A DNA stretch of 30,902 nucleotides. Source: Promethearchaeota archaeon (GTDB lineage: Archaea > Asgardarchaeota > Lokiarchaeia > Sigynarchaeales > SOKP01). This document shows, piece after piece, positions 11,900-30,902 of this stretch; within the stretch, counting starts at the first letter, position 1, and every line of letters starts with the position of its first letter. Location of the stretch: positions 1 to 30,902 of the forward strand of contig JAHLWT010000182.1 of assembly GCA_019057775.1 (NCBI GenBank), given 5' to 3'. Position numbers and translations under genes: made by a program. Under the pieces are notes generated by a model. That model saw nothing but the letters and a program-made list of their open reading frames with translations. It did no database searches and was not told the origin of the DNA.

Positions 11900-14263
11900 A
11901 TGAATTGTTTATTTTGTGAAAGTCAAAATATCGATTTTACTTGCGAGAAGTGTAAATCAAGTTTTTGTATTAATCATATGGCTACAACTGAGATACACGA
12001 ATGCCGAAAACATAATCTAGCTTATTCTAAAGTAAAGGCTGTTGAACGCAATTATAAATGTACAGTTGTAGGAAATAGCGTATGTCCCGAATGCCAACAT
12101 CTTTTACGCTTAGAAAGATTATCTTCAGGACAATATTATCTGGAATGTACTAATCTAAAATGTCCGGAAGCCTGGAATTCATATTTGAAAACGCCAGGAT
12201 TATTTTTTCCCTCCAGAGAAAAGCTTGCAAGAGAGGCTTTAAGATATAATCTCATAAGAGGAAATAAATTATCATTATGTAATAAAAAATTAAGACATAT
12301 TATCGGAAAGGAGGTGTGTCCTAACTGTTTTATGGATTTACTAAAGAGGGCACCTTTAACCAACTTTTCAACCATTTTGAATTCTTTCAATTTATCTGCG
12401 GAACATATGATTAAATTTATAAAGAAATACATGGAAGAAGAGCGAATCTATGGAATAATTGACAAAAAAAACCAGCTGTTTTATTATATCTCTAATGAAG
12501 TTCGGGAAGATATACTTAATAAAATACAAGATGAGGGAATAATTAAAGTAGACGATCTTGGAATAATGCTTGATATGAGCTCTGATATCGCTATTAAGGT
12601 GATTTACAAGTTAATAAGCCAATTTCAAATAAAAGGATCCTTTTCACTAGATAAAAAAACATACTATACTCAACAGTATATTATGGATAACTTGATTAAA
12701 GAAATCAAGAGTAAAGGAAGAAAAACTCTAAAGGATCTCGCTAACAAGTTTAACATCCCCAAAGAATTAACGAAGACTTTTTGTGTTAATCTAATGAGAG
12801 CAAAAGCAGTAAATGGTTTTTTCGCAGATCGAGGAAACGAAATTATTACTTCTGGTCAAATTTATAAAGAAATTAAGAAATATTCTAAAGAAACAGGCTT
12901 ATTTGAACTTTCTAAACTCGCAACCAAATTAAAAATTGCAGTTGAATTAGCTCGAAAAAGTTTGCATGAATTAATAAAAATAGGCTCTATAAAGGGATTG
13001 TTTACTCAAAGAAGAGAGTTCATGACCAATAAATACCTCGAAAAAAAAATACAGGAATTTGCCAGAGCCTACAGAACGATGCCACTGAGAGAGCTTTCAA
13101 ATAGACTAGGTGTAACTGAATCTAGTATAGAAGAAAATCTAGCACAGATTATTGCTCGTGGTGATATTGATGGTTATATAGATATGCAAAAAAGATTATT
13201 TGTCGCTTATGCTGTAAGTTCAACACGCCCAACAAAACAACCAGTGAAACAACCCTCCGATGGAGGTAAGATTGAAGTGGTGCGTGAGTACGATTTTGTT
13301 GGTGGACAATTACACTTTAAAGTGGCTGTTAGGAATAAGAGTGATATGGCAATAAATTCAGTGAAAGTTATTTTAGATATTCCTGGTAGCTATAAAGCAG
13401 AGAGTCCACTGATTAATATACCTTTTATTGAGGCTAAAAATTCTAGGGGCGTTGATTTTTATTTGGAGCCAAAAGAGTGTGGTTTATCAAATATTGGCGG
13501 TACAGTCATTTATAAAACTGCAGATGGAACTAAAAAGACTGTGCATATAAGAAAAAAAGAAGTTCAGATTATATGTCCTCTAGTAGTGTCATGTCTATCG
13601 ACAATCGAGGATGTACAAATTGCTATTCAAGATTTACCTAATGATGCTCGTGCTTTTTTAATAGCAGATTTAGATCCTAGACTTGCTTATCGAGCAGCAA
13701 ACAGAACAATTAAACGTTTTGAAGTAAGTATTGTAACTTCTCACGAAGATCATAATGCTAAAGGGCTTTATGAAGCGGAGAGTTGGTATTGTAGTGAAGA
13801 AAAGGTTCATGGAGGGAGAGTTATTACAAGGGTGTATGTTTCTGAGGCTGGTCAATCATTAGAAGTGAGAGTTTGGACAGCAAACATGGGTCAGTTGACT
13901 GGATTCTTGGCGAAGGTAATTGAGATGCTCTTTGAAGAAATTAATTTAATTCGGAAAATAAAAAGCGATGAACGCGAAAAAACAATTGATATCATGGCAA
14001 TTACACAGAATATTGCAGAAATGTCAGATTATGCTATGCTTAGATGGAAAGCGCAAAATATACGAATAAAATTACATGATACATTTGTTCGTGTCCGAAA
14101 AATAATTGGGGAGAAAGAAGCAATTTTAGGAAGAATGGAGTATTGGCTCACTGAACTGAACAAATACGGAAAAGATGATAAGATTTCGGATGAGCAGGCT
14201 GACAAATTGACAAATGATTTGGAGAATTTTAAAAACGTAATAGCTCGAGCTATTAAATTATAA
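11900..14263 (+). CDS. AN1-finger / winged-helix-repeat / appendage-like multidomain protein
   Basis: This 787-residue protein has an unusual domain string. Residues 1-36 form an AN1-like zinc finger (Cys3, Cys6, Cys15, Cys18, Cys23, His26, His33, Cys35). Residues 60-90 look like a zinc ribbon (Cys62, Cys65, Cys83, Cys88), and a further CxxC is at 140-143. Residues 195-437 read as about four tandem winged-helix units (for example TLKDLANKFNIPKELT and PLRELSNRLGVTESSI), a layout seen in PCI, ESCRT-II and UFL1-type proteins. After a Pro/Gln/Lys linker (442-455) comes a predicted Ig-like beta sandwich (457-560) and an alpha/beta module (about 565-685), the order and size of an adaptin/coatomer appendage. 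The last hundred residues are helical. It is soluble and cytosolic. ATG 11900 has a GAGGGA site nine bases upstream. Its function is unknown; a ubiquitin- or trafficking-type adaptor is only inferred. Confidence 0.85.
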   Translation: MNCLFCESQNIDFTCEKCKSSFCINHMATTEIHECRKHNLAYSKVKAVERNYKCTVVGNSVCPECQHLLRLERLSSGQYYLECTNLKCPEAWNSYLKTPGLFFPSREKLAREALRYNLIRGNKLSLCNKKLRHIIGKEVCPNCFMDLLKRAPLTNFSTILNSFNLSAEHMIKFIKKYMEEERIYGIIDKKNQLFYYISNEVREDILNKIQDEGIIKVDDLGIMLDMSSDIAIKVIYKLISQFQIKGSFSLDKKTYYTQQYIMDNLIKEIKSKGRKTLKDLANKFNIPKELTKTFCVNLMRAKAVNGFFADRGNEIITSGQIYKEIKKYSKETGLFELSKLATKLKIAVELARKSLHELIKIGSIKGLFTQRREFMTNKYLEKKIQEFARAYRTMPLRELSNRLGVTESSIEENLAQIIARGDIDGYIDMQKRLFVAYAVSSTRPTKQPVKQPSDGGKIEVVREYDFVGGQLHFKVAVRNKSDMAINSVKVILDIPGSYKAESPLINIPFIEAKNSRGVDFYLEPKECGLSNIGGTVIYKTADGTKKTVHIRKKEVQIICPLVVSCLSTIEDVQIAIQDLPNDARAFLIADLDPRLAYRAANRTIKRFEVSIVTSHEDHNAKGLYEAESWYCSEEKVHGGRVITRVYVSEAGQSLEVRVWTANMGQLTGFLAKVIEMLFEEINLIRKIKSDEREKTIDIMAITQNIAEMSDYAMLRWKAQNIRIKLHDTFVRVRKIIGEKEAILGRMEYWLTELNKYGKDDKISDEQADKLTNDLENFKNVIARAIKL

Positions 14264-17513: not shown

Positions 17514-18701
17514 TTAACTTTTACTCTGAATTCTGCTATAGGTATCGTTAAAATATTTATCAGACATTCCAGCGATATAATCCCTTACGATTAATGGAAG
17601 TCGATCCTTATTTTTAAGTTGGTTAAAATAAGTATTATAGCTCGGATCATCAATATATTCAATATGATCGTTAAAAATTGGAGAGTTATAGTTATTTTCT
17701 TCTAAATCTTTTAAACATTTCTTAAATATTAATGTAAACCTGAATCTTAATGTATCCAAAAATTCTCGATCTCTTCTATGATAGATATTTGAATAATTAA
17801 ACTCTTTAAGTTTTTTTAATGCTAGGAAGACTTCATTGCTATAGCCAATTACATCATTATCTAAACTAAAATTAAGTAAATCATTTATGAGAGTATTAAT
17901 TATTTGTGGGTTGGTATTGCCGAGTACTTTTTTACATTCCTCGGGAATTTGCTTGCGAGTTATGAGTTTTAACAATATTGCATCTTCGATATCTCTTCCA
18001 ATGTAAGATATTGTGTCCGCTACTCTTACAGCAATTCCTTCATAACTCATAGGAATTCGCTTAATATGATTTTCATTGAAACAGTCCTCATATTCTCTAT
18101 AATGATCTTCCCAAGATTTTCCATTTCTCTTAACTGGCTTTAATTTTTGTTCATTCACTTCACCATCATGACAAAGAATCCCATCGAGTACCTGCAGAGT
18201 TAGATTAAGTCCCATAGCGGGATCTTGAGGAGATTTTTGTTCAAGATAAGAGAGCCATCGAATTCCTTGAGCATTATGACTAAATGTGCCAAAATTATAT
18301 TTCTTACTAATTTCATCTAAAAGTTGTTCTCCAAGATGGCCGAATGGAGGGTGGCCCAAATCATGACCGAGTGCGATAGCTTCAATTAAATCAGTGTTTA
18401 ATCTTAATACACGCCCAATTTGCCGAGCAATTCTTGAAACCAAGGTTACATGTAGAGATCTATGAGTGATATTAGCATTGTTTATATTAAAAAATACTTG
18501 TGACTTATCAATATATCTGCTAAAAGCTTTGGAGTGTACGATTCTATCTACATCTCTGAAAAATGAGGGTCTAATATCTTCATTGATTACATTTACTTCT
18601 TTTTTATACCTTGTGGCTTCTGAATCCATTATTCCATGGATACCAACATTCACATCTCGTTTCATTCGATCCTGCAAGAGATCGATTGTTTTTTTATCCA
18701 T
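17514..18701 (-). CDS. dGTPase-like HD-domain triphosphohydrolase
   Basis: This 395-residue cytosolic hydrolase of the Dgt/SAMHD1-type HD family removes triphosphate from deoxynucleoside triphosphates. It shows an N-terminal RPSFFRDVDRIVHSKAFSRYIDKSQVF block with the usual Arg/Asp-rich approach. The first metal His is in NITHRSLHV (His80), the HD pair in ALGHDLGHPPFGHLGE (113-114), then FSHNAQGIRWL, and a late metal Asp in VRVADTISYIGRD. All HD-box ligands appear present and the length fits. Family members set dNTP pools and, in several bacteria and in animal SAMHD1, limit viruses; which applies here cannot be read. The ATG at 18701 leads directly into the expected N-terminal helix. The neighbour upstream on the same strand is a polyferredoxin gene, 179 bases away, so co-transcription is doubtful. 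Confidence 0.93.
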   Translation of the reverse strand: MDKKTIDLLQDRMKRDVNVGIHGIMDSEATRYKKEVNVINEDIRPSFFRDVDRIVHSKAFSRYIDKSQVFFNINNANITHRSLHVTLVSRIARQIGRVLRLNTDLIEAIALGHDLGHPPFGHLGEQLLDEISKKYNFGTFSHNAQGIRWLSYLEQKSPQDPAMGLNLTLQVLDGILCHDGEVNEQKLKPVKRNGKSWEDHYREYEDCFNENHIKRIPMSYEGIAVRVADTISYIGRDIEDAILLKLITRKQIPEECKKVLGNTNPQIINTLINDLLNFSLDNDVIGYSNEVFLALKKLKEFNYSNIYHRRDREFLDTLRFRFTLIFKKCLKDLEENNYNSPIFNDHIEYIDDPSYNTYFNQLKNKDRLPLIVRDYIAGMSDKYFNDTYSRIQSKS

Positions 18702-18880
18702 TCTATGTTTTTACCCTCAAGGTAATAAAGTAAATTTGATGGTCTAAGAATAAATAGGGTATTATTAAGATTTTACTCTCTAGTCTTATTAAACTTATAG
18801 TTTTTCGATTTAAAAAAGATATCAAAGACATTACTCACTACTTAAATAAATTCCAGATCTTTCTTCTAAAACCATTTAAA

Positions 18881-19822
18881 CTAACCAAATTTTAAATCTA
18901 TGGCATCATAAGGGCAATCCTGCTTGCATTTCAAGCAAAGATTGCACTCTCCTTTACCGGTAAAAAACTCAAAAGACTCGTCAAGTATTCTTATCTGTTT
19001 GGGGCAAACTTTCTCACATATACCACACTCAGTTCTTCCCACACATCGCACTGGGCTTCTGGAGAGTTTTAAAAAGGAGTATTCGCTAACTGCTGAGGCT
19101 ATCGCTCCAAATGGGCAAAGATACCGACAATATATTCGTGGATACCACACAGATAAAACAACGACAACCAAGTAAAAAACAAAAATAATAAATACTAGAA
19201 GATTAGAAAATAGAGGGGCTATACTCCTTGAGATAAACAATTCTTTAATCATCTCCGGAAAAAAGACAAAAATATATTCAGATAAAGAAAAATTCCCCAT
19301 AGGTTTTTTTCCTAAATCTCCTAAATTATCTCTATAATCCAAATAAAAACTCAAGTTAGTTGTTTTAGTGATACTTAATGGAAGAACTATGATAATAATT
19401 ATTATAACTATTACATACTTAATCTTCAACAGTGAATTATGAGTACTGGGCTTTATTTTCTTTTTATTTGTAGGAATTGACGCACATGCGTCTTGAATTG
19501 TTCCAATTGGGCAAATCCATCCGCAAAAAAACCTCCCAGTAAAAAGCAACACAAAAATAAGTACTCCAATTAGGAATAGAGGAAAAAAACCTTCTAATAG
19601 GAAATAAAAAATGAATTCCAAGATCCCTGCTCCATTTGAAATTGGATTCCGAGGGGAGTTTAAAATTGGAAGAATTTTTATCAGCCCATCTAAACTCAAT
19701 AAATTAATAGCGAAGATTGCTTCAATAATGACATAATTTACTAATAAAAATGCAAAAATCTGTACTGTACGTCTTAAAATTGTTAAGGCCCGGATTCTTC
19801 GTTTATTATCTCCTTGATTCAA
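18881..19822 (-). CDS. NapH-like membrane polyferredoxin
   Basis: This 313-residue membrane iron-sulfur protein of the NapH/NosR-C/CcoG type has about five hydrophobic segments. Cytosolic loops carry two CxxxCP motifs (FFCGWICPIG and YCRYLCPFG). At the C-terminus are two ferredoxin-like clusters (CVGRTECGICEKVCP and CNLCLKCKQDCP), each able to bind 4Fe-4S. Such proteins pass electrons between the quinone pool or cytosolic ferredoxin and a partner oxidoreductase. No FMN-binding or reductase partner is adjacent. The frame begins at TTG 19822, immediately preceded by an in-frame TAA, and no ATG or GTG exists before the first helix, so TTG is the likely start; its ribosome-binding sequence is weak (GGTAAC). 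Confidence 0.88.
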   Translation of the reverse strand: MNQGDNKRRIRALTILRRTVQIFAFLLVNYVIIEAIFAINLLSLDGLIKILPILNSPRNPISNGAGILEFIFYFLLEGFFPLFLIGVLIFVLLFTGRFFCGWICPIGTIQDACASIPTNKKKIKPSTHNSLLKIKYVIVIIIIIIVLPLSITKTTNLSFYLDYRDNLGDLGKKPMGNFSLSEYIFVFFPEMIKELFISRSIAPLFSNLLVFIIFVFYLVVVVLSVWYPRIYCRYLCPFGAIASAVSEYSFLKLSRSPVRCVGRTECGICEKVCPKQIRILDESFEFFTGKGECNLCLKCKQDCPYDAIDLKFG

Positions 19823-19966
19823 AAGTTACCACTAAATACTATTTGAGAAAAAAAATTAATGCTATCTAAAAAAATTAATTTTTCTTTTAATGAAATGAAT
19901 AATAGAAAAAAATTTTTATAATTAATCTATTTTTCTATAATTTCAATCAATTCAGATGCATACAGT

Positions 19967-21877
19967 TCACTTTAAAAAAAGTGTTTCTAAATTCTTCGGG
20001 CTTTTAGTTGATTTCCTGAGCTTTTTGTGAATCATTGTTGACAAGCTTACCACTTTTGACTCCTCTCCATGATTAACGATAATTAATTTAGGTCGTGGTT
20101 GAATTCGTCTTAAAAATTGTGAAATTTGTGATCTAGAACTATGTCCACTAAACCCCTCTAAAGTAAAAACTTTCAAATTATGCTTAATCAACTGTGTTCT
20201 CCCCTTAGCATCGACATACTGGAATTCCCTAAATCCCTTTTGGATTCTATTCCCCAACGTACCAGAAACTTGATATGATACGAAAATAAGAGAATTTTTT
20301 GAATCTTCAGCCAATTTTCTTAAATATTGAACAGATGGACCTCCTATTAACATCCCGCTAGTAGCCAAAATGATACACGGTCCACCCTTAATAATATTTA
20401 GTCGTTCTTCTTGAGCTGAAACAGTTTCAAAAAAATCGCTCAAAAATGGATTTTTACCTTGGTGCAATATTTTCTCTTTTAAGTCACTACTAAGAAAATC
20501 AGGATTTGCAGTATGGATGGCAGTAGCTTCACTAATTAAGCCATCAATAAAGATTGGTACTTTATCAATAAATCCCTTAGAAATATATTCTTCTAAGACA
20601 ATTAATAGTTCTTGGGCTCTTCCCACGGCGAGAACAGGAATTAAAACCTTTCCACCTCTTTTGAGGGTTGAGTTCAGAATTTGTTTTAGTTCTTTTTCAG
20701 AATCTTGCCTGCTAGGAATTCGATCTTGAGGTCCTCCATAGGTTGATTCTATTAACAAACTTTCAACTCTTGGAAATTTAACAGTTGCTTTTTCTAATAA
20801 TCGAGTTTTTTGATATTTAAAATCCCCTGAATAAACAAAATTATAATCCCCTTTACCAAAGTGTAAATGTACCATTGATGAGCCTAGGATATGTCCAGAA
20901 TTATGAAGTGTTAATTTAATATCAGGTGCGATGTCAGTAACTTTTCCCCAGGAAAGTGGGATAGTATGGAGAACTGTTGATTTAACATCTCTTTTTGAAT
21001 AGGGTTGTGGTGTGCCTTCTTTTTCACATATTTGGATGAAATCCAATTGTAACATCGTTGATAAATTGCGTGTAGGTAACGTTGAATAGACCGGTCCTCT
21101 ATATCCATATTTATAAAGAAACGGGACTAAACCACAATGATCTAAATGAGCATGTGAAATGATTACAGCATCTAGATCTCTCACAGAAAATTCAGGAATA
21201 TAAAAATAAGGAAACCTATCATGAGGACTCCCTACATTTAACCCACAATCCAATAATACACTACTTTCTCTAGTTTGCATTAATATACATGATCTACCAA
21301 CTTCTCGAAAGCCTCCTAATGCCGTTAATCGAATATTTAGATCTTTGAAAAGAGATGGTCGATGTATTCTTTTTCCGATTCGTAATAAAATATCTTTTTG
21401 AGTTTGTCGTTCTTTTTTCAACATACCTCTTATTAATAGAATTGTTCTTGAAGTAAGTGGAGGTGTTCGAATCGTTTTAGGTTGCCAAAAAGTGTTTGCT
21501 CTAATATCTTTAAGATTTACACCTTTCTTCCCAATGACAAGCCCAGGCTTACCAGATTCAATTATAACTTCACCACGAGTGTGGTCAAACTCAATATTGG
21601 TAATTTCCGCATCAACATTTACAAGATTTCTTATGTAAGTTTCAGTTTCTGCGGGATCTTTTCGTTTATCTACATTCCATCGAAAAACTACACGTTTTCG
21701 CATGGTTTTTGCCAAATCCTTTAAAACGGTTGAGCTTTCAACTGCTTGTACATCAGCACTCTCAGAATAGACTGCTATTTCAGGACCTTCAAATTCTATT
21801 TTCTGAACTGTTATTTCTGGAGGGAGATTGGAAACTATTTCATCATAAATTCTTTTTAATTCGCTTTCGAAGGACAT
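19967..21877 (-). CDS. fttA: FttA/aCPSF1 transcription termination ribonuclease
   Basis: This full-length (636-residue) archaeal CPSF73-like beta-CASP nuclease belongs to the factor that cleaves nascent RNA and terminates transcription. Residues 1-70 and about 75-150 are the two N-terminal KH-like domains, with a VIGKKG loop at 114-119. The metallo-beta-lactamase core follows, with motif SHAHLDHCGL (zinc ligands in 242-247), SGHILGSSM and YSGDFKY. The beta-CASP insert carries LIESTYGG, VLIPVLAVGRAQE and ILATSGMLIGGP, and the C-terminal FSGHSSR and VNHGEESK supply the last ligands. It is expected to act as a dimer with RNA polymerase and Spt4/5. The ATG at 21877 gives the canonical MSFESELKRIYDEI start. 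It is divergent from purN across 329 bases. Confidence 0.97.
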   Translation of the reverse strand: MSFESELKRIYDEIVSNLPPEITVQKIEFEGPEIAVYSESADVQAVESSTVLKDLAKTMRKRVVFRWNVDKRKDPAETETYIRNLVNVDAEITNIEFDHTRGEVIIESGKPGLVIGKKGVNLKDIRANTFWQPKTIRTPPLTSRTILLIRGMLKKERQTQKDILLRIGKRIHRPSLFKDLNIRLTALGGFREVGRSCILMQTRESSVLLDCGLNVGSPHDRFPYFYIPEFSVRDLDAVIISHAHLDHCGLVPFLYKYGYRGPVYSTLPTRNLSTMLQLDFIQICEKEGTPQPYSKRDVKSTVLHTIPLSWGKVTDIAPDIKLTLHNSGHILGSSMVHLHFGKGDYNFVYSGDFKYQKTRLLEKATVKFPRVESLLIESTYGGPQDRIPSRQDSEKELKQILNSTLKRGGKVLIPVLAVGRAQELLIVLEEYISKGFIDKVPIFIDGLISEATAIHTANPDFLSSDLKEKILHQGKNPFLSDFFETVSAQEERLNIIKGGPCIILATSGMLIGGPSVQYLRKLAEDSKNSLIFVSYQVSGTLGNRIQKGFREFQYVDAKGRTQLIKHNLKVFTLEGFSGHSSRSQISQFLRRIQPRPKLIIVNHGEESKVVSLSTMIHKKLRKSTKSPKNLETLFLK

Positions 21878-22206
21878 TTATTTTCACTAGTTTTATTATC
21901 TATTTTTAAAGTCTCTACTCAAAATTTTATTTAAACTATGGATAAAATGGATGTAATAATAATACTTGAGAGTTGTTTGTATGTTGTTATGTTTTGATAA
22001 TTTGCGAATTCTATTTTTGAATAAATAGAATTACAATACTTTTTAGAATGAAATATTTCTAAATTTCTAAGATAGATATAAATTAATCAAATAAAAAGAT
22101 TTTCATTATCAGAAAACTGAAATTATTCTGCATTCTTCTCTTTTCCATGACGATAATTCTTCCTTAATAAGATATATTTTTTTGATTAAAAATATTATAA
22201 TCAATT
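21878..22206. other. Divergent intergenic region, fttA / purN
   Basis: These 329 bases hold no gene. They must contain the promoters of both flanking genes: a TATA-like GATATATTTT (about 22169) sits roughly 35 bases before the purN ATG and suggests a nearly leaderless purN transcript. The notable element is a perfect ten-base inverted repeat near the centre. Confidence 0.6.
22007..22032. repeat. Perfect 10-bp palindrome with 6-base spacer
   Basis: AATTCTATTT at 22007-22016 and AAATAGAATT at 22023-22032 are exact inverted copies separated by TTGAAT. The spacing (16 bases centre to centre, about 1.5 helical turns) could suit a dimeric DNA-binding protein, or a hairpin in RNA. The site lies between divergent fttA and purN, so an operator role is possible. 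Confidence 0.45.
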
Positions 22207-22842
22207 ATGGGAAAACTAAAAATTGGTGCTATAGCATCCGGAAGTGGCAGCAATTTTGAAGCAATTGTTCAATCTACGGAGACCGGGATATTAAAGGATA
22301 AAGCAAAAGTAAAACTCTTAATTTGCAATAAGGCTGGTGCTTTTTGTATAGAACGTGCTAAAAATCATAGTATACCATATGTTTTAATTGAATCAGATAA
22401 ATTCCTCCACCTTCCCCGAGAGGAATTTGATTTGAAATTGATAGAATCTTTCAAGCAGCATGGTTGTTCATTAATTGTTCTGGTAGGGTATATGAGACTA
22501 GTCAGTCAAGTTTTTATCGATGCTTTTGATGGTAAAGTTATGAATATTCATCCCGCTCTTTTACCTTCATTCAGAGGAATGCATGCACACAAGGATGCTT
22601 TAGAATATGGAGTTAAAGTTTCGGGAGCAACTGTTCATTTTGTTGACGTTCAATCAGATCATGGCCCTATCATAATGCAAAAATGTGTACCCGTTTATGA
22701 TACTGATACTGAAGAAACTTTAGGAAGTAGAATATTAGAATGGGAACATAAAATTTTTCCTAAAGCAATCGAATTGTTTTGTGATAATAGATTGCATATC
22801 GATGGGAGAACTGTGCGAATAGATGGAGAAATCAATTTTTAG
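22207..22842 (+). CDS. purN: Phosphoribosylglycinamide formyltransferase
   Basis: PurN transfers a formyl group from 10-formyl-tetrahydrofolate to GAR in de novo purine synthesis, in the cytosol. At 211 residues it has the normal length. The N-terminal phosphate-binding loop IASGSGSNFEAI, the catalytic NIHPALLPSFRG (Asn113, His115) and the VHFVDVQSDHGPII segment with the catalytic Asp (Asp151) are all intact. The ATG at 22207 places MGKLKIGAIASG directly at the first strand. No other pur gene adjoins it; the neighbours are the divergent fttA and, downstream, the EF-2 paralog. Use of the folate-dependent PurN rather than formate-dependent PurT suggests a folate or folate-like C1 carrier. A long stem-loop follows the gene. 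Confidence 0.96.
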   Translation: MGKLKIGAIASGSGSNFEAIVQSTETGILKDKAKVKLLICNKAGAFCIERAKNHSIPYVLIESDKFLHLPREEFDLKLIESFKQHGCSLIVLVGYMRLVSQVFIDAFDGKVMNIHPALLPSFRGMHAHKDALEYGVKVSGATVHFVDVQSDHGPIIMQKCVPVYDTDTEETLGSRILEWEHKIFPKAIELFCDNRLHIDGRTVRIDGEINF

Positions 22843-22860
22843 TTGAACCAATTTATATCA

Positions 22861-22962
22861 AGGGAAATGATTTTAATGTGCTATCTGACCCAACGGATTA
22901 TTTCAGCTTTTTAGTTGATAATAATATGACGAAGATCTTGAGTAGCTAAAAATCATTTCCCT
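22861..22962 (+). other. Long imperfect stem-loop downstream of purN
   Basis: AGGGAAATGATTTT at 22861-22874 is exactly complementary in inverted orientation to 22949-22962, and a further GCTA/TAGC pair (22880-22883 with 22943-22946) extends the stem inside a small asymmetric loop. The apical part has a CTGA/TCAG hairpin. In RNA this gives an 18-pair stem closing about 60 bases; a pyrimidine-rich CCCCCTTT follows. It could be a small structured RNA, a 3'-UTR element or a terminator for purN. No coding frame covers it. Confidence 0.45.
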
Positions 22963-23064
22963 CCCCCTTTCTGAAGTCTTTTCAAATTATATCTTAAATA
23001 CTAAAATTTTAATCAGAGTATTTATAATCCTTAATATCATTTGAGAAAACAAGTTTAAAAGGAA

Positions 23065-25254
23065 ATGCCTCGTAGAAAAGAAATCTCGGAAATACTAAAT
23101 TTAATGGAAAAAACAGAAAATATAAGATGTGTGGGATTGGTCGGGCATATTGATCACGGCAAGACTACACTTTCAGATTCGTTATTAAGTGAAGCTGGTT
23201 TTTTATCACCCGATTTGGCGGGAGAAGCACGAGCTTTAGATTATTTAGAAGAAGAACAAGCACGAGGGATCACAATGAAGTCAGCAAACATCTCACTATA
23301 TTATGAAAAATCTCTAGAAGATCATGAACCTTTTCTTATTAATTTAGTTGATACACCTGGACATTTAGATTTTAGTGGGAAAGTTAGCCGTGCATTAAGG
23401 TTAATTGATGGAGTTGTAGTGGTAGTAGATGCGGTTGAGGAAATTATAACTCAATCGGAAACAGTAATTAAACAAGCGTTACAAGATGGTGTTCAACCAG
23501 TACTCTTTATCAATAAAGTAGATCGTTTAATCAGAGAATTAAAGCTCTCAGATGAGGAAATTAAGAAAAAATATATACGTATAATAAAATCGTTTAATAC
23601 ACTTATCGAACGCCATGCTGAACATCCTTTCAATAAAAGATGGAAAGTATCTCCTTTAGCAGGAAACGTCGCTTTTGGTTCAGCCCTTCATAAATGGGGT
23701 TTTACATTAAATATTTTAGAGAAAGCAGATTTAAAGTTTAAAGATATTAGAGCAAGGTATAAGAAGGAAACATACACAAAAGAATCTTATGCTGATTTAG
23801 CCACATATTTTCCAATTCATAAAGCAATATTAGAAATGGTTGTTGATCATTTGCCAAATCCGATGGAAGCACAAAAATATAGAATTGAAAAGATTTGGGA
23901 TGGTAATGTTAATTCTGAAGTCGGGAGAGCAATGATTAATTGTGATCCTAACGGTCCTTTGATAGTATGTTTAAGTAAAGTTCAAGCAGATAAACATGGG
24001 TTAATTGCAACAGGAAGAATATTCTCTGGAACATGTGTAAAAAAAGCTGAAGTGTTAGAATTAAGAGAAAACAATTTTGATACAATTCAGAGATTATCGA
24101 TTTTTATGGGACAGAGAAGAGAACAAGTAGAAAAAATCCCTGTTGGAAATATAGTGGCAATTGAAGGATTTAAAAAGATAAAAAGCGGAGAAACAATTAT
24201 TGATAAACATAAGATTGGCGATATGGTGCCATTCGAAAATGTAAAGTACGTAACAACGCCAGTGGTTACGGTTTCAATTGAACCCGAATATTTAAGAGAT
24301 TTGGATAAAATGAAGATCCTTGTTGAGAATTTATTAATAGAAGATCCAAATCTAAAATTTGAAGTGCACGAAGAGAATGGCGAATTTTTATTATCTGGAA
24401 TGGGTCCATTACATCTTGAGGTTACTGTCAACGAAATTGGAAAAAGAGGAGTAGAAATTTCTGTTTCGGAACCTAGAGCAGTTTTCAAGGAATCTTGTAA
24501 CTACAGTTCATCATTAATCACCACACATTCCCATAATAATCAAAGTTCAGTTTCATTAAAAATTGAAAGATTAGATACCAAAAGTGTTAGATTCTTTCAA
24601 AATATAGATTTTAAGAGCTTAAAGATTTTAGATCAATATAGAGAAATACTTTCTGAAAAAACTCTATTAAGCAATGAGGAAATTGAAAATCTTCTAACTT
24701 GTGATGATGAGTTAAATATTGTGATATATAACGGAAAATTTGAGTTAGAAGAGATGTACAAGAATACTATTCTTGAAATAATAGATACAATTCGTTTAAA
24801 TGGTCCTTTATGCGGTGAAAAGCTAACAGAGACGAAAATAACCATCGAAGATTTAATTATCAACAATGTACCGCAAGAAAATCTATTTAATGAATTATCT
24901 ATCATATTCTACGAAGCTATAAAAAAGAGTTTAGATGATGCAGAATTAATATTATTAGAACCAATATATCATACAATTATACAACTCCCTCCGGATCATA
25001 TAAAAAATACTTTATCTCTCCTTTCAAAGCATTCAGCAAAAATAAAAAGTATTGATCAAGATAAGGAATACCAAGCAATTATAGAAATCTTATTACCAGT
25101 CAGAAATTCAATAAAATTTGCTGAAGATATACGTAACAGTACGTCTGGGAGAGCTTTCTGGCAAAATGAGTTTTATGCTTACTTAGAAGTTCCAAAACAT
25201 GAAGCACAGCGAATAGTTCAAGATTTGCGATTCGCTAAAGGTTTATCTTGGTAA
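23065..25254 (+). CDS. EF-2 paralog without the diphthamide loop
   Basis: This 729-residue translational GTPase has the length and domain order of archaeal EF-2. The G domain is intact: GHIDHGKT at 27-34, ARGIT at 66-70, DTPGHLDF at 96-103 with the catalytic His, NKVDRL at 150-155. Domain II and the SGMGPLHLEV block of domain III are recognisable. Domain IV is degenerate. The VYRET-like entry has become VFKESCNYSSS, and the tip that in EF-2 carries HRGPAQ with the diphthamide histidine reads DLIINNVPQENLFNEL (596-611), with no His. The SGRAFWQNEF region near the C-terminus survives. It is thus probably not the main translocase but a ribosome-binding GTPase with another task, as proposed for Asgard EF-2 paralogs. 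ATG 23065 follows an AAAAGGA sequence closely. Confidence 0.9.
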   Translation: MPRRKEISEILNLMEKTENIRCVGLVGHIDHGKTTLSDSLLSEAGFLSPDLAGEARALDYLEEEQARGITMKSANISLYYEKSLEDHEPFLINLVDTPGHLDFSGKVSRALRLIDGVVVVVDAVEEIITQSETVIKQALQDGVQPVLFINKVDRLIRELKLSDEEIKKKYIRIIKSFNTLIERHAEHPFNKRWKVSPLAGNVAFGSALHKWGFTLNILEKADLKFKDIRARYKKETYTKESYADLATYFPIHKAILEMVVDHLPNPMEAQKYRIEKIWDGNVNSEVGRAMINCDPNGPLIVCLSKVQADKHGLIATGRIFSGTCVKKAEVLELRENNFDTIQRLSIFMGQRREQVEKIPVGNIVAIEGFKKIKSGETIIDKHKIGDMVPFENVKYVTTPVVTVSIEPEYLRDLDKMKILVENLLIEDPNLKFEVHEENGEFLLSGMGPLHLEVTVNEIGKRGVEISVSEPRAVFKESCNYSSSLITTHSHNNQSSVSLKIERLDTKSVRFFQNIDFKSLKILDQYREILSEKTLLSNEEIENLLTCDDELNIVIYNGKFELEEMYKNTILEIIDTIRLNGPLCGEKLTETKITIEDLIINNVPQENLFNELSIIFYEAIKKSLDDAELILLEPIYHTIIQLPPDHIKNTLSLLSKHSAKIKSIDQDKEYQAIIEILLPVRNSIKFAEDIRNSTSGRAFWQNEFYAYLEVPKHEAQRIVQDLRFAKGLSW

Positions 25255-25295: not shown

Positions 25296-26693
25296 TCATT
25301 TAGTAAACTTAAGGATGAACTCAGCGATATTGTAATTTGGAACAATAAAATCAGCCAAGCCTTTTTCAGCGGCAAGTTTAGGCATAGCATAGAGTATACA
25401 CGTCTCTTCTGACTCGGCGATAGTTTTTCCTCCTACTTTTTGAATCACACCTAGCCCATTTACCCCATCTGACCCCATTCCTGTTAAAAGGATTCCCATT
25501 GTCCTACTTCTATAAATCTTTGCAGAAGAAAAGAATAAAACATCAATCGAGGGCATACAAAAGTTCACTGGTTTTCCTTTGTATAATTTTAACGATGGTT
25601 TACTATTTTTCACACAGATTTCCATGTGCATATCACCTGGTGCTATATAAGCCATTCCGTTCTGAAGGAGGTCACCGTCTTTAGCAACTTTTATTGATAA
25701 GTTACATTCAGAATTTAGATTCTCTGCAAATGCTTCAGTAAAATGTGCTGATAAATGTTGAACGACTAAGATAGGTGCTCGTATAGATGGAGGGATTTCT
25801 TTTAGAATTGTTGTTATCGTCCTCGGACCTCCAACGCTAGCTCCTATCACAATGACATTAGACGATAGAAATAAATCTTTTACTGGCTTGAGATCAGGAG
25901 TGTAATCTTGTAATTTATTTATCGTCTTAACAGGTATTACTTTCTTTTTTAATGTTGATTCTGCTGGTACTTGAATTTCTTTTGTTTCAAGTTTTTGGGT
26001 AGTTTTTATAGTAGATACTGGTTTTTGAGCACTTTTAATAGCACTTGGTTTACTTAATTCCTGTTCTCTTTTAGAGGGAATAACTTCTTCACTTACTTTC
26101 TCAACTTCTATTTTTAGAGTTGTCTTCATTTCCTCTTTATCATAAAATGTAATTTCTGGTTTTTCTTCAATTTCTTCAATTGGGGTTAATTTATTTATAT
26201 ATTGGCCAAAATCAAAAATCCCATTTACAATATCTTGCCTTAATGATTTACTCTTTCGAGAAATATCTTTTTCAATCTGAAAAATTTTTTTAATCTGGGA
26301 TTGTGATGCTAATAAAACTTTTGCTAGTAACTCTTCACGAAATCTTGGTAAATCTTTTGCTCCAATTCCGCCTGGTTTAACAATATAATCAAAAGCTCCC
26401 ATTAAAAGTGCTTGAATAGAAGAATCTAAATTTTTAGGGCTAATAGCTGAAAGAATCACTGTCGGTGTAGGGTGTTCTTCCATAATCAACTTGAAAGCGT
26501 CCAAACCATTCATTTTTGGCATTAATAAATCTAAAACTAAAACGTCTGGTCTATATTTCTTAACAAATCTGACTGCTTCCTCTCCATCTTTCGCATATTC
26601 AACAATTCTTATTGAATCATGCTCCTTAAGAATATCTGAAATTTTTTTTCTCAAAAATTGAGAATCATCTGCGATAAGCACTTCTATTGACAT
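25296..26693 (-). CDS. cheB: CheB chemotaxis methylesterase with extended linker
   Basis: This 465-residue CheB is a cytosolic response-regulator esterase/glutamine deamidase that demethylates chemoreceptors. The receiver domain covers residues 1-125 with phospho-acceptor Asp55 (VLVLDLLMP) and acidic residues at 9-10. The C-terminal methylesterase domain begins near 280 and has the catalytic Ser (VIGASVGGPRT), His (VVQHLSAHFTEAF) and Asp (LLTGMGSDGVNG). Between them lies a linker of about 140 residues rich in Lys, Glu, Thr, Ser and Pro, much longer than usual and longer than in its paralog at 29075. It is last in the minus-strand cluster, 125 bases after the GTPase gene, so it may have its own promoter. 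The long linker could loosen control by the receiver domain or add docking sites; that is inference. Confidence 0.96.
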   Translation of the reverse strand: MSIEVLIADDSQFLRKKISDILKEHDSIRIVEYAKDGEEAVRFVKKYRPDVLVLDLLMPKMNGLDAFKLIMEEHPTPTVILSAISPKNLDSSIQALLMGAFDYIVKPGGIGAKDLPRFREELLAKVLLASQSQIKKIFQIEKDISRKSKSLRQDIVNGIFDFGQYINKLTPIEEIEEKPEITFYDKEEMKTTLKIEVEKVSEEVIPSKREQELSKPSAIKSAQKPVSTIKTTQKLETKEIQVPAESTLKKKVIPVKTINKLQDYTPDLKPVKDLFLSSNVIVIGASVGGPRTITTILKEIPPSIRAPILVVQHLSAHFTEAFAENLNSECNLSIKVAKDGDLLQNGMAYIAPGDMHMEICVKNSKPSLKLYKGKPVNFCMPSIDVLFFSSAKIYRSRTMGILLTGMGSDGVNGLGVIQKVGGKTIAESEETCILYAMPKLAAEKGLADFIVPNYNIAEFILKFTK

Positions 26694-26818: not shown

Positions 26819-27775
26819 CTAAAAAAGATTTGAGATGAAAAAAGTAAAAAGTTCATCGATACCTTCTCCTGTAAATGCTGATGTTTCAAAAAATGAAAAA
26901 TTATATTGTTCTGCCAGTTGTTGAGCTTGATTTTTAAGATCTACTCGATCTGTGGAAATATCTATTTTATTACCAATGAGAATAATAGGGATTGTTTGAT
27001 CAGTCACAAAATGTTGAATTTCTTCAATCCATTTAGTAATATCATTGAAAGTTTCGGGTCTTGCATAATCAAACAAAAGGAGAACTGCATGTGCCAATCT
27101 ATAATAAAATTTACGCACTTTAATAAAACTCTTTAATCCTCCTAAATCAAATAGTATCAATGACAAATTATAATTTTTTGATATCTGTAGGCTTTTTTCT
27201 TTTATCGAAATTCCAATAGTTGGTTTGTAGGAAGGTATCAACTCAATATCACAAAATATATCGACTAATGTACTTTTTCCAACTTCTTCAGAACCAATAA
27301 TCGCAATCGCTTTTATTTTACCATTTGAATTCGAATTATTAATAGAAGATAAGACTATCTCACCATTTTCATTCAATTTCGGGAGTTTTAATGATGTACT
27401 TCGGTTATTTAAAATCATCGATATTTTTTCTGCAACTATATAGGTATAAGGGATATATTGGTCAATATTTGCGTAAGGATCAGCAATCAAAACGAAAATA
27501 GCTGGAGTAACTTTTCTTAACTCTATATAAAACAGCTGGAATTCATTAGTATCAAAGGTTCCACTTCCAAATGAAGTTTCTGCATATCTCCTAATTTTAG
27601 TTATTGTTTGCTCTAATATTGTAGTAATTGCTCCTATAAGTTCTTCATCAAAACCTTTCATGGATTGTTTAGCTATGATTAATCCATCTAAATCTAAAAC
27701 TAAAGCAGCTGATAGATCTCTAGCTTCATTTAGCAGATTAGAAAGTAATTCCTCTAGTGTGGATGATAATGACAT
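26819..27775 (-). CDS. Roadblock/LC7 - Ras-like GTPase fusion
   Basis: This 318-residue cytosolic protein joins two modules. Residues 1-125 are a Roadblock/LC7 domain (LEELLSNLLNEARDLSAALV, then DLDGLIIA), the fold of MglB and of GTPase-regulating scaffolds. After a Ser/Asn-rich linker (135-153), residues 155-318 are a Ras-superfamily GTPase: G1 GSEEVGKST (161-169), switch I KPTIGISI with Thr186, G3 DLGGL (210-214), G4 NKID (269-272) and G5 ETSA (297-300). Compared with Ras, positions 12 and 13 are both Glu and position 61 is Leu, substitutions expected to impair GTP hydrolysis. The gene lies between cheC (36 bases upstream) and cheB, inside a chemotaxis operon. It suggests a self-contained MglB/MglA-like switch coupled to chemosensory signalling; the coupling is inferred from position. 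Confidence 0.93.
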   Translation of the reverse strand: MSLSSTLEELLSNLLNEARDLSAALVLDLDGLIIAKQSMKGFDEELIGAITTILEQTITKIRRYAETSFGSGTFDTNEFQLFYIELRKVTPAIFVLIADPYANIDQYIPYTYIVAEKISMILNNRSTSLKLPKLNENGEIVLSSINNSNSNGKIKAIAIIGSEEVGKSTLVDIFCDIELIPSYKPTIGISIKEKSLQISKNYNLSLILFDLGGLKSFIKVRKFYYRLAHAVLLLFDYARPETFNDITKWIEEIQHFVTDQTIPIILIGNKIDISTDRVDLKNQAQQLAEQYNFSFFETSAFTGEGIDELFTFFISNLF

Positions 27776-27811: not shown

Positions 27812-28477
27812 TCATATATTTAAATCATATTTTAAATTCAAAATTTTAAATAATTCTTTCAAAATTTCCATACTTGGTACAAGACATATCGTACCGTTTA
27901 ATTTTATATCTTTAACTTGAATTTTAGTCTTAATTATAATCGTATAATCTGAATATTGAGAATTTTTAGCAATAACTGTATCCAACATAGCATTTAAGTT
28001 ATCAAGTGCTAATTTTGGTACGCCCGGAACTAATCCGATTGATAATAAGTTAGCTACTGCACTTGCATAATTTCCAGATAAGATATTACCAATTTCAGAA
28101 ATTATACTATACGAAAATTCATCCAGATCTTGAATTGTGTTAATATTATCAACCATTATTTCATCTTCGTCGTTTAAAATATTAACTAAGTTTATAACTG
28201 ATTCCTTAGTATAAAATTGAATTATTGACAAATCACTTTTGCCTATAATTTCTGAGTATATTCCAAATGCTTCAGTATTTGGATCTTCAAATAAATCTGG
28301 AATATTCCAAAACGGAATTATGTTAACTGCTGTTAGTGATACATCTACTCTTTCTTCTATTAATTCAGATAATGCTGTAATCGCATGACCAGCGCCTATA
28401 TTACCAAGTTCCTTTAATATATCCAATTGTTCTGGCGTTAATTCAAGACTTCTTGATTTATTATTTTCTCCATTCAT
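27812..28477 (-). CDS. cheC: CheC-family chemotaxis phosphatase
   Basis: This is a 221-residue CheC/CheX/FliY-family protein, cytosolic, that dephosphorylates CheY-P and binds CheD. Both active-site motifs of two-site CheC are present: DILKELGNIGAGHA (Glu23, Asn26) and FSYSIISEIGNILSGNY (Glu128, Asn131). It therefore looks catalytically competent at both sites, unlike CheX, which has one functional site in a different layout. It follows cheD with a 29-base gap and precedes the Roadblock-GTPase gene by 36 bases, a tight operon that fits the CheC-CheD complex. The GHA in place of GNA after the first motif is a mild deviation. The ATG at 28477 begins a short charged lead before the first helix. 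No CheY is in the window. Confidence 0.93.
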   Translation of the reverse strand: MNGENNKSRSLELTPEQLDILKELGNIGAGHAITALSELIEERVDVSLTAVNIIPFWNIPDLFEDPNTEAFGIYSEIIGKSDLSIIQFYTKESVINLVNILNDEDEIMVDNINTIQDLDEFSYSIISEIGNILSGNYASAVANLLSIGLVPGVPKLALDNLNAMLDTVIAKNSQYSDYTIIIKTKIQVKDIKLNGTICLVPSMEILKELFKILNLKYDLNI

Positions 28478-28506: not shown

Positions 28507-29049
28507 CTAAAGTATTTTAGGCCTTTTTTCTTCACCACTTATTTTAACAAATACTTCATAATTTTTCGTATTGAAATTGACGATTCTTCCTTGCATTCCA
28601 CCAATACTTTTTTTAATTATCTTTATACCATATTTATCTAACTCATGCTTAATTTGGTTTATGTTTTCTTCACCAATATCATTATTTGGTAAATCAAAGA
28701 TTTTTGATCCTCCCACTATAATTGCGTTAATTAATTCTTTTTGAGCTCCTCCATCGGTAAGTTCATCAAGCAAGTATTTTACAGATAAATTTGCATATTT
28801 ATGAGGAAGTTTAATTTCTTTGTTTTTGTGTGATTTTGGTAAGAGAACATGAGACATGCCACAAATTCTATTTTTTTTATCAAAAAGGATTAGAGCAATA
28901 CATGACCCTAATCCATAAATAGAGATTGTAGGAAATTTATTTTCTAAGCCTGTATTACCATTTATTAAAGTATAGTGCCCTATTGGTAATATTATTTCTC
29001 CTTTCTCATTAACTTGTGTAATTTTATCAGAGTGAGGACGTTCAGTCAA
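28507..29049 (-). CDS. cheD: CheD receptor glutamine deamidase
   Basis: This 180-residue CheD deamidates receptor glutamines and stimulates CheC phosphatase activity. The catalytic Cys50 (IYGLGSCIALILFD) and His67 (CGMSHVLLP) are separated by 17 residues as in characterised CheD, and the KYANLSVKYLLDEL and AIIVGGSKIF blocks are family-typical. There is an N-terminal extension of about 25 residues compared with minimal CheD proteins. It sits between cheB (25 bases upstream) and cheC (29 bases downstream) on the minus strand, so the genes for the CheC-CheD pair are adjacent. The ATG at 29049 is the only ATG near the start; a TTG or GTG further in would still leave the catalytic core intact. Confident family call. 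Confidence 0.94.
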   Translation of the reverse strand: MTERPHSDKITQVNEKGEIILPIGHYTLINGNTGLENKFPTISIYGLGSCIALILFDKKNRICGMSHVLLPKSHKNKEIKLPHKYANLSVKYLLDELTDGGAQKELINAIIVGGSKIFDLPNNDIGEENINQIKHELDKYGIKIIKKSIGGMQGRIVNFNTKNYEVFVKISGEEKRPKIL

Positions 29050-29074: not shown

Positions 29075-30208
29075 TTAATTATAAAGATCATTTGTAAATT
29101 TTATTGCATATTTTATCATATAGCCATGAATTTTATAATTTGGAAGTATCAAACTTGCAGCTCCTCTTTTTGCTGCGGCTTTTGGCATGCCATATAATAC
29201 ACAAGTTTCTTCGGATTCAGCTATTGTTTTTCCTCCCTGAGTTTTTATCGCTTCCAATCCCGCAGCGCCATCCTCACCTAATCCGGTCAATATAATACCT
29301 AAAGTATGATTTTTATAGGTTTCAGCAGCTGAAAAAAACAAAACATCCACAGAAGGCATACAAAAATTGACAGGTTTACCTTCGAATGTTTTTATATAGG
29401 ATTTATGGTTAATTACATCGATTTTCATGTGTTTACCTCCTGGACTTAGATATATCATCCCTGGTTGGATCTTTTCACCATTATCGGCAATCTTTACTGG
29501 CAACTTACATAAATGATCTAAGGATTGAGCAAATTGTTTCATAAAATAAGCATCCATATGTTGTACAATTAAAATAGGGCTTTGAAAATCTTCAGGGATT
29601 TCCTTTAGTAAACTTTTTAATGTTCTAGGACCACCCGTACTTGTACCTATGACTATTATATTAGATTCAAATGTCGGGAGCGATATTTTTGGTAGTTTCA
29701 CAGAAACTTCTTCAGGTTTATCCCAAACCTCACTTTTACTTTTAATTTTCTGAAATGCAGATTTGTCAATTGATTTTTTAATTAATTTCGTACGTTTTTC
29801 GTAGGTCTTCTTTATCCCCGCAGCATATACAACGCTAGATATGAGTTTTTCTTTATATTTTAAAAATTCTTCCTTCCATACACCTTTGGGCTTTATTATA
29901 AAATCAAATGCTCCTAAAAGTAAAGCTTGGACTGAATCATCTAAAGTCGCAGGATTTTTGGCTGAAAAAATAATTGTGGGTATTGGATAATGTTCGGAGA
30001 GAAATTTAAATACTGTCAGCCCATCAACTTCAGGCATAACTAAATCTAAAATTAATACATCAGGATTCAAAAATTCGATTTTTTCAATTGCTTCTCTTCC
30101 ATTTCTTGCTATGTCTACTTTTGTAATTTCTTCATGTGTTAAAAGCATATCTTTAATAAGTTTCCTCTGAAAGGCTGAATCCTCAGCCACAAGAACTCTG
30201 ATGGGCAT
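29075..30208 (-). CDS. cheB: CheB chemotaxis methylesterase (standard linker)
   Basis: This 377-residue CheB starts the minus-strand che cluster. Its receiver domain has Asp55 as phospho-acceptor (VLILDLVMPEVDG). The methylesterase domain has Ser in VIGTSTGGPRT, His in VQHMDAYFMKQF and Asp in LTGLGEDGAAG. The linker (about residues 130-180) is of ordinary length. It is clearly paralogous to the second CheB at 25296; both keep all catalytic residues, so two active esterases of different architecture are made from one locus. cheD follows after 25 bases. Upstream, a TATA-like TTATTTATAG lies about 20-30 bases before the ATG, suggesting a short-leader promoter for the whole cluster, with 282 bases of non-coding DNA beyond. 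CheA, CheR and receptors must be elsewhere. Confidence 0.96.
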   Translation of the reverse strand: MPIRVLVAEDSAFQRKLIKDMLLTHEEITKVDIARNGREAIEKIEFLNPDVLILDLVMPEVDGLTVFKFLSEHYPIPTIIFSAKNPATLDDSVQALLLGAFDFIIKPKGVWKEEFLKYKEKLISSVVYAAGIKKTYEKRTKLIKKSIDKSAFQKIKSKSEVWDKPEEVSVKLPKISLPTFESNIIVIGTSTGGPRTLKSLLKEIPEDFQSPILIVQHMDAYFMKQFAQSLDHLCKLPVKIADNGEKIQPGMIYLSPGGKHMKIDVINHKSYIKTFEGKPVNFCMPSVDVLFFSAAETYKNHTLGIILTGLGEDGAAGLEAIKTQGGKTIAESEETCVLYGMPKAAAKRGAASLILPNYKIHGYMIKYAIKFTNDLYN

Positions 30209-30490
30209 TAAAATCGATAATCTAAATACTATAAATAATAATGATAAATTTACTTTAATGTAATCTAAATATTTTCTAATTAATTACATCATGGAAATTT
30301 GCTTTAATATACTTTTAGAAAACGAAAGGCTTATTATGTTATTTAAAATTAATAAATTCTTAATAATCAGCAAAGTATCATCAACTTCCTTTGACTTAGA
30401 TTTCATACAATCAAATAAAATTAAATTTTATACTCAGATTAGAAGTGTAATAGAAATAGAAAATTTTTAAAAATTTTAATTATATGCCAT

Positions 30491-30902
30491 TCAATTTCCT
30501 AATAGCCTTTCTATCTCAACAAACCTCTGTTGAATATGCTCTATAGAATATTTGATATGATTTTGCATTTCCTTTATTTCATAAAAAATCTTTTTTATCC
30601 TATTCTTTACAGAAGGTGATATGACACTCTCAAGGGGAGTTCTTTCTGCTTGAACTAGTAGGTCTGATTCTGCTTTTGCTTCAGTGTATTCCCTACTGTA
30701 TAGAGCTTGTCTCGATACACCAGGATATTCAAAATCAGTTTTATTATCTTTAATTTCATTATAAATTACATGAAATTCAGGTGGTTCTATCCCCTGTTTG
30801 ATAACTTCATATTTAAAATTGAAAAATTTCTTCTTTGTTTTAAGCTTACCAGCCCAATTTGCTGCCATATATCTATGAAATAGACGTGAATGACCTCCTG
30901 CC
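30491..30902 (-). CDS. Hypothetical protein, 5' part cut by the window edge
   Basis: At least 136 residues are encoded. The frame stays open from the apparent ATG at 30868 to the right edge, and the upstream residues (GGHSRLFHRYMAANWAGKLK) look like real protein, so the gene most likely begins outside the window. The visible part has a basic segment (LKTKKKFFNFKYE), a middle with EPPEFHVIYNEIKDN, a helix with SREYTEAKAESDLLVQ, and a long C-terminal amphipathic helix (IFYEIKEMQNHIKYSIEHI) that could be a coiled coil. There is no membrane helix and no Cys. I do not recognise it. It is on the same strand as the che genes, but the 282-base gap makes co-transcription unsure. Confidence 0.6.
   Translation of the reverse strand, partial: AGGHSRLFHRYMAANWAGKLKTKKKFFNFKYEVIKQGIEPPEFHVIYNEIKDNKTDFEYPGVSRQALYSREYTEAKAESDLLVQAERTPLESVISPSVKNRIKKIFYEIKEMQNHIKYSIEHIQQRFVEIERLLGN

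Follow-up and report, generated by a model that had tools for sequence, protein, structure and literature searches.

In a DNA stretch of 30,902 nucleotides from a Promethearchaeota archaeon of the Lokiarchaeial class (contig JAHLWT010000182.1; referred to as the window), a single gene on the reverse strand (26819..27775) encodes a predicted Roadblock domain followed by a Ras-like GTPase, and it is located among chemotaxis (che) genes. This raises the question which role a small GTPase plays in a chemosensory operon and on which machinery such a pathway would act. A sequence-only reading had taken the gene for a fused counterpart of MglB and MglA. Our analysis suggests a different answer: the operon combines the Ras-type switch with a gelsolin-like actin regulator, swimming machinery was not found in 83 genomes of the class, and the pathway may steer the actin skeleton.

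The fusion gene and its operon

A protein search with the fusion yielded 305 homologues. Among the 120 matches listed, identities range from 48 to 95% over 90-100% of the query, and all those carrying an organism name are from Asgard archaea, in agreement with the origin assumed in the sequence-only reading. When one genome of each bacterial and archaeal species was scanned, 53 loci were obtained. Of these, 14, all titled Lokiarchaeota or Lokiarchaeia, contain relatives that match across both domains; in 13 of the 14 the locus also carries one or more che-operon genes, the exception being L011. The 83 class genomes (the class to which G001, the genome containing locus L003, belongs; one genome per species, the Lokiarchaeial loci being titled as metagenome-assembled genomes, MAGs) contain an orthologue, defined by at least 278 bits, in 16 cases, while the match that follows in score, a paralogue, reaches 180 bits. 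The 227 genomes of the phylum contain the same 16. In 14 of these a che gene is located within two genes of the orthologue, and in 11 it is directly adjacent; in three (L063, L066, L068) the gelsolin gene lies beside the orthologue, followed by a gene for a CheW-CheC fusion. The neighbourhood is thus conserved in related genomes, a point whose failure the sequence-only reading had named as refuting it. The two orthologues with neither a che nor a gelsolin neighbour (L065, L067) fall into a six-row subclade of ~433-residue proteins nested within the group (approximate likelihood-ratio support, SH-aLRT, 100, in a rapidly built tree that gave long-branch warnings, also for L067), and this nested position makes the departure from the operon look secondary. 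Relatives of 433 residues with a C-terminal extension are encoded at L011:10001-11302 and L067:1501-2802, and no che genes were found near either.

CheW was detected in 24 of the 83 genomes (in G042 only as a stop-containing fragment), CheC in 21 and CheB in 30; at the phylum level CheW is present in 45 of 227 genomes, in 44 above the cut-off. CheW accompanies the orthologue in 15 of 16 genomes, compared to 9 of the 67 others (Fisher p 1.5e-9, without correction for kinship). As the homologues are this similar over nearly the entire query and the neighbourhood is kept in other genomes, the fusion is not a chance product, and judging from these sequence comparisons the Roadblock-GTPase gene is near-certainly a conserved member of the che operon.

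The composition of a complete operon is seen around the best-scoring orthologue (66% identical) in locus L114 of genome G049, where gene identities were assigned by BLAST. All genes are on the same strand with gaps of -1 to 109 nt, in the order ~273-residue protein, cheW, cheY, cheA, 674-residue DUF11-type protein, 283-residue protein, CheW-CheC fusion, gelsolin, cheR, cheB1, cheD, cheC, Roadblock-GTPase and cheB2; as called, the gelsolin and cheR open reading frames (ORFs) overlap by one base. The window corresponds to the downstream part of such a gene run. L013 encodes CheW, CheY and a CheA with all five domains (Hpt, P2, dimerisation, ATPase and CheW), and L005 encodes CheR. By predicted gene content, the cluster is a Che system as defined for bacteria and archaea, with CheA, CheW, CheY, CheR and CheB together.

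Membership in the operon could still be passive. In favour of the gene being one of the many small GTPases of Asgard archaea, co-transcribed by chance and without a signalling link to Che, 6-27 matches to the query were counted per class genome (E <= 1e-12, with no more than 27 candidates scored in each), many of them paralogous fusions; moreover, some che operons have no such gene, and in G003 and G054 it is found at another place. Such hitch-hiking is nevertheless improbable, because the association persists amid differing neighbours (cheC-GTPase-cheB2, cheR-GTPase and gelsolin-GTPase-histidine kinase), CheW accompanies nearly all orthologues, and the clade carries a specific change in its G3 motif.

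The GTPase, the gelsolin-like neighbour and the pathway output

The fusion starts with ATG and comprises 318 residues. In the AlphaFold2 model (mean predicted local distance difference test score, pLDDT, 87.9) an arrangement of helix, two strands, helix, three strands and helix precedes the G domain. Alone, the window protein scores below the cut-off of the Pfam Roadblock family PF03259 (E 3.6e-4 and 2.7e-4), whereas of 19 N-terminal domains compared (one from the window, 14 from clade copies and four from paralogues) 16 match it at E <= 0.01, the best with 2.8e-7. A Roadblock profile gave a single weak PDB match, CvnB5 (3leq, E 0.081), and the fold search with the whole fusion model returned GTPases among the matches shown, so that it barely probed this half. 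Since the PDB profile match is only weak, the assignment rests on the Pfam family matches and the model topology, according to which the N-terminal domain (residues 1-128, 27392..27775) is a Roadblock domain.

Residues 157-315 match Pfam Ras with E 8e-35, and the G1 (GxxxxGK[ST]), switch-I Thr, NKxD and SA motifs of the Ras superfamily are present. One ORF with a Roadblock domain followed by a Ras-like GTPase, as described in the sequence-only reading, is hence supported by Pfam, by the family matches and by the model. The P-loop (GSEEVGKST, residues 161-169, 27269..27295) carries Glu where Ras has Gly12, and the G3 motif (DLGGLKSF, residues 210-217, 27125..27148) has Leu214 in place of Ras Gln61. 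Among 137 clade rows, including a few identical ones, Gln occurs in none at this position (Leu 95, Ile 21, Ser 9, Phe 3, Val 3, Ala 3, Lys 2, Thr 1), while all 16 paralogue rows have it. An acidic residue, Glu or Asp, occupies the Gly12 position in 114 of the 137 rows, NKxD is retained in 135, and a 90-row alignment (A2) shows no variation in the switch-I Thr. In Ras proteins, changes of this type in the switch-II Gln or the P-loop slow hydrolysis but do not abolish GTP binding. The best 60 of 858 PDB sequence matches are of Rab/Ras type, with none named MglA, and the top matches shown in the fold searches are likewise Rab/Ras-type.

These features bear on the MglB-MglA parallel, in which the Roadblock domain would be the GTPase-activating protein of its own GTPase in cis and the Che pathway would flip cell polarity. 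The same two folds in one chain would fit such a switch. Bacterial MglA has its own catalytic switch-II Gln, Gln82; the fusion, with Leu214, lacks a residue of this type. According to PMC9481161, Frz acts on MglA/MglB in Myxococcus, which also speaks for the parallel, but MglB is described there as repositioning MglA's own residues, and with the switch-II Gln lost this mechanism is not simply transferable. The loss throughout the clade and its retention in the paralogues, together with the Rab/Ras-type character of the best PDB matches shown, weaken MglA/MglB as a direct model; as a mechanism the parallel is not supported, and we regard it as the least probable of the explanations considered here.

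The sequence-only reading overlooked the gene most indicative of the output. A gelsolin-domain protein is encoded at 30491..30901 (reverse strand); the window end truncates it to the 3' part (residues 46-181, within full-length P0206), which contains a long helix (about 30839-30889) and a C-terminal helix. Single sequences of this family give weak signals, with none of ten reaching the Pfam cut-off and five matching Gelsolin below it. A profile of the operon gelsolin-like proteins (A3) matches gelsolins in the PDB, and the fold is supported by an AlphaFold2 model and fold search of the relative L005:5904-6449, not of the window copy. On this basis the operon neighbour very probably carries a gelsolin domain.

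In other archaea, CheY acts via CheF on ArlCDE, as reported in PMC9680633. Pfam searches of the 83 class genomes detected no CheF (positive controls: 3 of 14 named genomes), no ArlD/E (Arch_fla_DE; 2 of 14) and no archaellin above the cut-off (4 of 14), which makes an output other than the archaellum plausible, and with it the earlier suggestion that the output is not solely flagellar. Ca. L. ossiferum is reported to have Lokiactin filaments, gelsolins and putative receptor arrays (n = 2; PMC9834061), and a review cites amoeboid-like migration by Asgard cells (PMC12993045). Actin would be the economical reading of the output, and we give it an even chance.

A corresponding scheme can be drawn from gene content and folds, with the wiring inferred; we consider it about equally likely to be right or wrong that a Lokiarchaeial CheA pathway has Lokiactin as its output and acts through gelsolin as the effector, with the GTPase serving as a platform that stays GTP-bound for long. 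The receptor array and CheA would phosphorylate CheY and both CheB proteins, CheR, CheB and CheD would adapt the receptors, and CheC and the CheW-CheC fusion would dephosphorylate CheY at the array. Phosphorylated CheY or a partner would control gelsolin, and through it capping, severing or sequestering of Lokiactin would come under pathway control. With P-loop, switch-I Thr and NKxD intact, the Roadblock-GTPase probably binds GTP, and we propose that it hydrolyses it slowly because the switch-II Gln is lost. It may persist in the GTP-bound state as a Roadblock dimer or platform, linking Che components to gelsolin or the membrane, and would be switched off only via exchange or a partner supplying catalytic residues. 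The action on actin via gelsolin and the platform role are the least certain steps. Somewhat more tentative than the scheme itself is the proposal that in archaellum-less Lokiarchaeial cells the CheA-type phosphorelay steers actin, via the dedicated gelsolin and the Ras-superfamily switch, to direct protrusions or crawling.

Alternatively, the Roadblock-GTPase may belong to the CheC/CheD/CheB adaptation branch or place the receptor arrays at a membrane site, with gelsolin merely anchoring them to actin and a diffusible output elsewhere (pili, transcription or metabolism). The window-type operon, with the GTPase between cheC and cheB2 and away from the gelsolin gene, would agree with this, and the CheW-CheC fusion suggests an array-fixed phosphatase. 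In L009, L012 and L013, however, the gelsolin gene adjoins the GTPase gene (8, 59 and 18 nt apart, respectively) and no cheB, cheC or cheD homologue directly follows it; we consider this alternative unlikely, albeit less so than the two discussed above.

Several observations weigh against actin as the output. The genomes G024, G025, G041 and G083 have the gelsolin but no GTPase orthologue (the G025 contig ends shortly past cheC), the operon of G003 lacks the GTPase, of which a 433-residue relative is found elsewhere in the genome, and the che cluster of G007 (cheW, cheY, cheA) has neither gelsolin nor GTPase. Gelsolin is missing in 6 of the 24 CheW-positive genomes. The ~433-residue subclade lies outside the operon (G003, G054), and G054 gave no match to CheW, CheC or CheB. 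Gelsolin-positive operons without the GTPase indicate that the GTPase is not obligatory and that gelsolin is tied more tightly than the GTPase to the operon type. In the gelsolin domain, the conservation of two strands almost equals that of the long helix, so that the conserved helix speaks only weakly for actin binding. Finally, one archaellin match below the cut-off was obtained in G074 (E 3.4e-5), and with MAGs and three Pfam models only, the absence of archaellum parts is provisional.

Other genes of the operon and the window

Upstream of the fusion, on the same strand, the window contains cheB1 (29075..30208; Pfam CheB_methylest 5.9e-62, Response_reg 1.6e-20), which encodes a receiver and a methylesterase with the active-site motif GTSTGG, followed by cheD for a receptor deamidase family protein (28507..29049; Pfam CheD 2.7e-21; Cys50 and a His 17 residues further) and cheC for a CheY-P phosphatase family protein (27812..28477; Pfam CheC 7.7e-18; NCBIfam CheC_Thtogales 2.9e-39, below the cut-off of that model), with two ExxN sites in the expected repeats. 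Downstream, also on this strand, cheB2 (25296..26693; CheB_methylest 1.6e-57, Response_reg 8e-22) encodes a receiver, a long linker and a methylesterase with the motif GASVGG. A motif check found the active-site motifs of CheB, CheD and CheC in the window proteins. CheC and CheD are also present in archaea. The gaps are 25 nt between cheB1 and cheD, 29 nt between cheD and cheC, 36 nt between cheC and the GTPase gene and 125 nt between the latter and cheB2; the position between cheC and cheB described in the sequence-only reading and the short gap to cheC are therefore correct, but the gap to cheB2 is not very short.

No cheR was found between gelsolin and cheB1 (30209-30490), as in L115 and L116, while several relatives have cheR there; L001:7380-7601 retains only a cheR-like remnant of 73 residues. 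The receptor methyltransferase of the window-type operon may be encoded elsewhere or lost. At L118:2109-4319, a CheR with a long C-terminal extension (736 residues) adjoins the gelsolin gene in a genome without Roadblock-GTPase orthologue.

The operon further encodes a conserved protein in which a CheW domain is joined to several phosphatase repeats of CheC/CheX type (~660 residues; L005:3796-5781, L114:8143-10122, L013:7348-9297), whose CheW and CheC/CheX halves are separate genes in G007 (L117:7824-9034). A conserved ~282-residue protein (L005:2902-3750; relative L013:6413-7279) gave no Pfam match at E <= 0.001 and a weak CheW-type PDB match (E 0.18), and a further conserved protein of ~273 residues is encoded upstream of cheW. 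The protein with DUF11-type repeats (about 674-1058 residues; L005:833-2860, relative L013:3251-6379) showed no match to methyl-accepting chemotaxis proteins in Pfam and no transmembrane segment by simple hydropathy. Downstream of the Roadblock-GTPase, L013:10979-13997 encodes a PAS-histidine kinase-receiver protein and then a Gtr1/RagA-like GTPase, and L012:10994-13075 a relative of the former.

Beyond cheB2, the gene order at 17514-25254 is shared with L002, L003, L005 and L014 and includes EF-2-like and formyl transferase genes (by BLAST) as well as genes for beta-CASP, ferredoxin and HD proteins (by ORF size); owing to this kept order the locus looks vertically stable. A viral-contig scan gave ten pattern matches, none of which was confirmed by tblastn, and a viral origin was rejected. 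On the forward strand, 11900-14263 encodes a 787-residue protein that matches PCI, E3_UFM1_ligase and DDRGK and, weakly at its C-terminus, VPS28; it is possibly a eukaryotic-signature protein.

Comparison with known systems

Flagella, archaella, pili and gliding machines are known targets of chemosensory pathways; to our knowledge, no such pathway is known to act on a eukaryotic-type actin system. The host group is among the archaea most closely related to eukaryotes. If true, the proposed pathway from sensing to actin would be older than eukaryotic chemotaxis and made of other parts, and the operon gives concrete candidates for the target of such a pathway and connects receptors with regulated actin, a joining that is central to amoeboid behaviour.

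The Roadblock-GTPase fusion as such is not new, as Asgard architectures of this kind, with an N-terminal Roadblock domain and a small GTPase in one chain, were catalogued by Tran et al. 2024 (PMC10933270). The sequence-only reading was not aware of a described archaeal system of this kind. The word 'chemotaxis' does not occur in the main text of that paper, and among the open-licence papers listed in literature searches, judged by titles, the beginnings of abstracts and selected passages, none connects che genes with gelsolin or a Roadblock-GTPase in Asgards. Compared to the catalogued fusions, the window clade has lost the switch-II Gln and is located in a che operon. Ca. L. ossiferum combines Lokiarchaeial che genes, gelsolins and Lokiactin in a single organism, but in the passages considered from PMC9834061 the che genes are not linked to gelsolin or a GTPase. 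Euryarchaeal chemotaxis via CheY, CheF and ArlCDE (PMC9680633) shares the CheA/W/Y/R/B set, and differs in the CheF and Arch_fla_DE that were not found in the 83 class genomes.

The Asgard gelsolins Thor ProGel and Loki, Heim and Thor 2DGel (PDB 7c2f, 7whg, 7whf, 7c2h; PMC9433394) resemble the operon protein in their gelsolin domain, by profile and fold. The latter has one domain and a C-terminal helix, is '1DGelX'-like by our own reading of that label, and is encoded in a che operon. The Frz and MglA/MglB/RomR system of Myxococcus xanthus, as described in PMC9481161, likewise unites chemosensory genes, a Roadblock protein, a Ras-like GTPase and a non-flagellar output. MglA and MglB are separate proteins there, whereas here a fused, Rab-like GTPase without the switch-II Gln is accompanied by adaptation proteins of CheC/CheD type and by a gelsolin gene.
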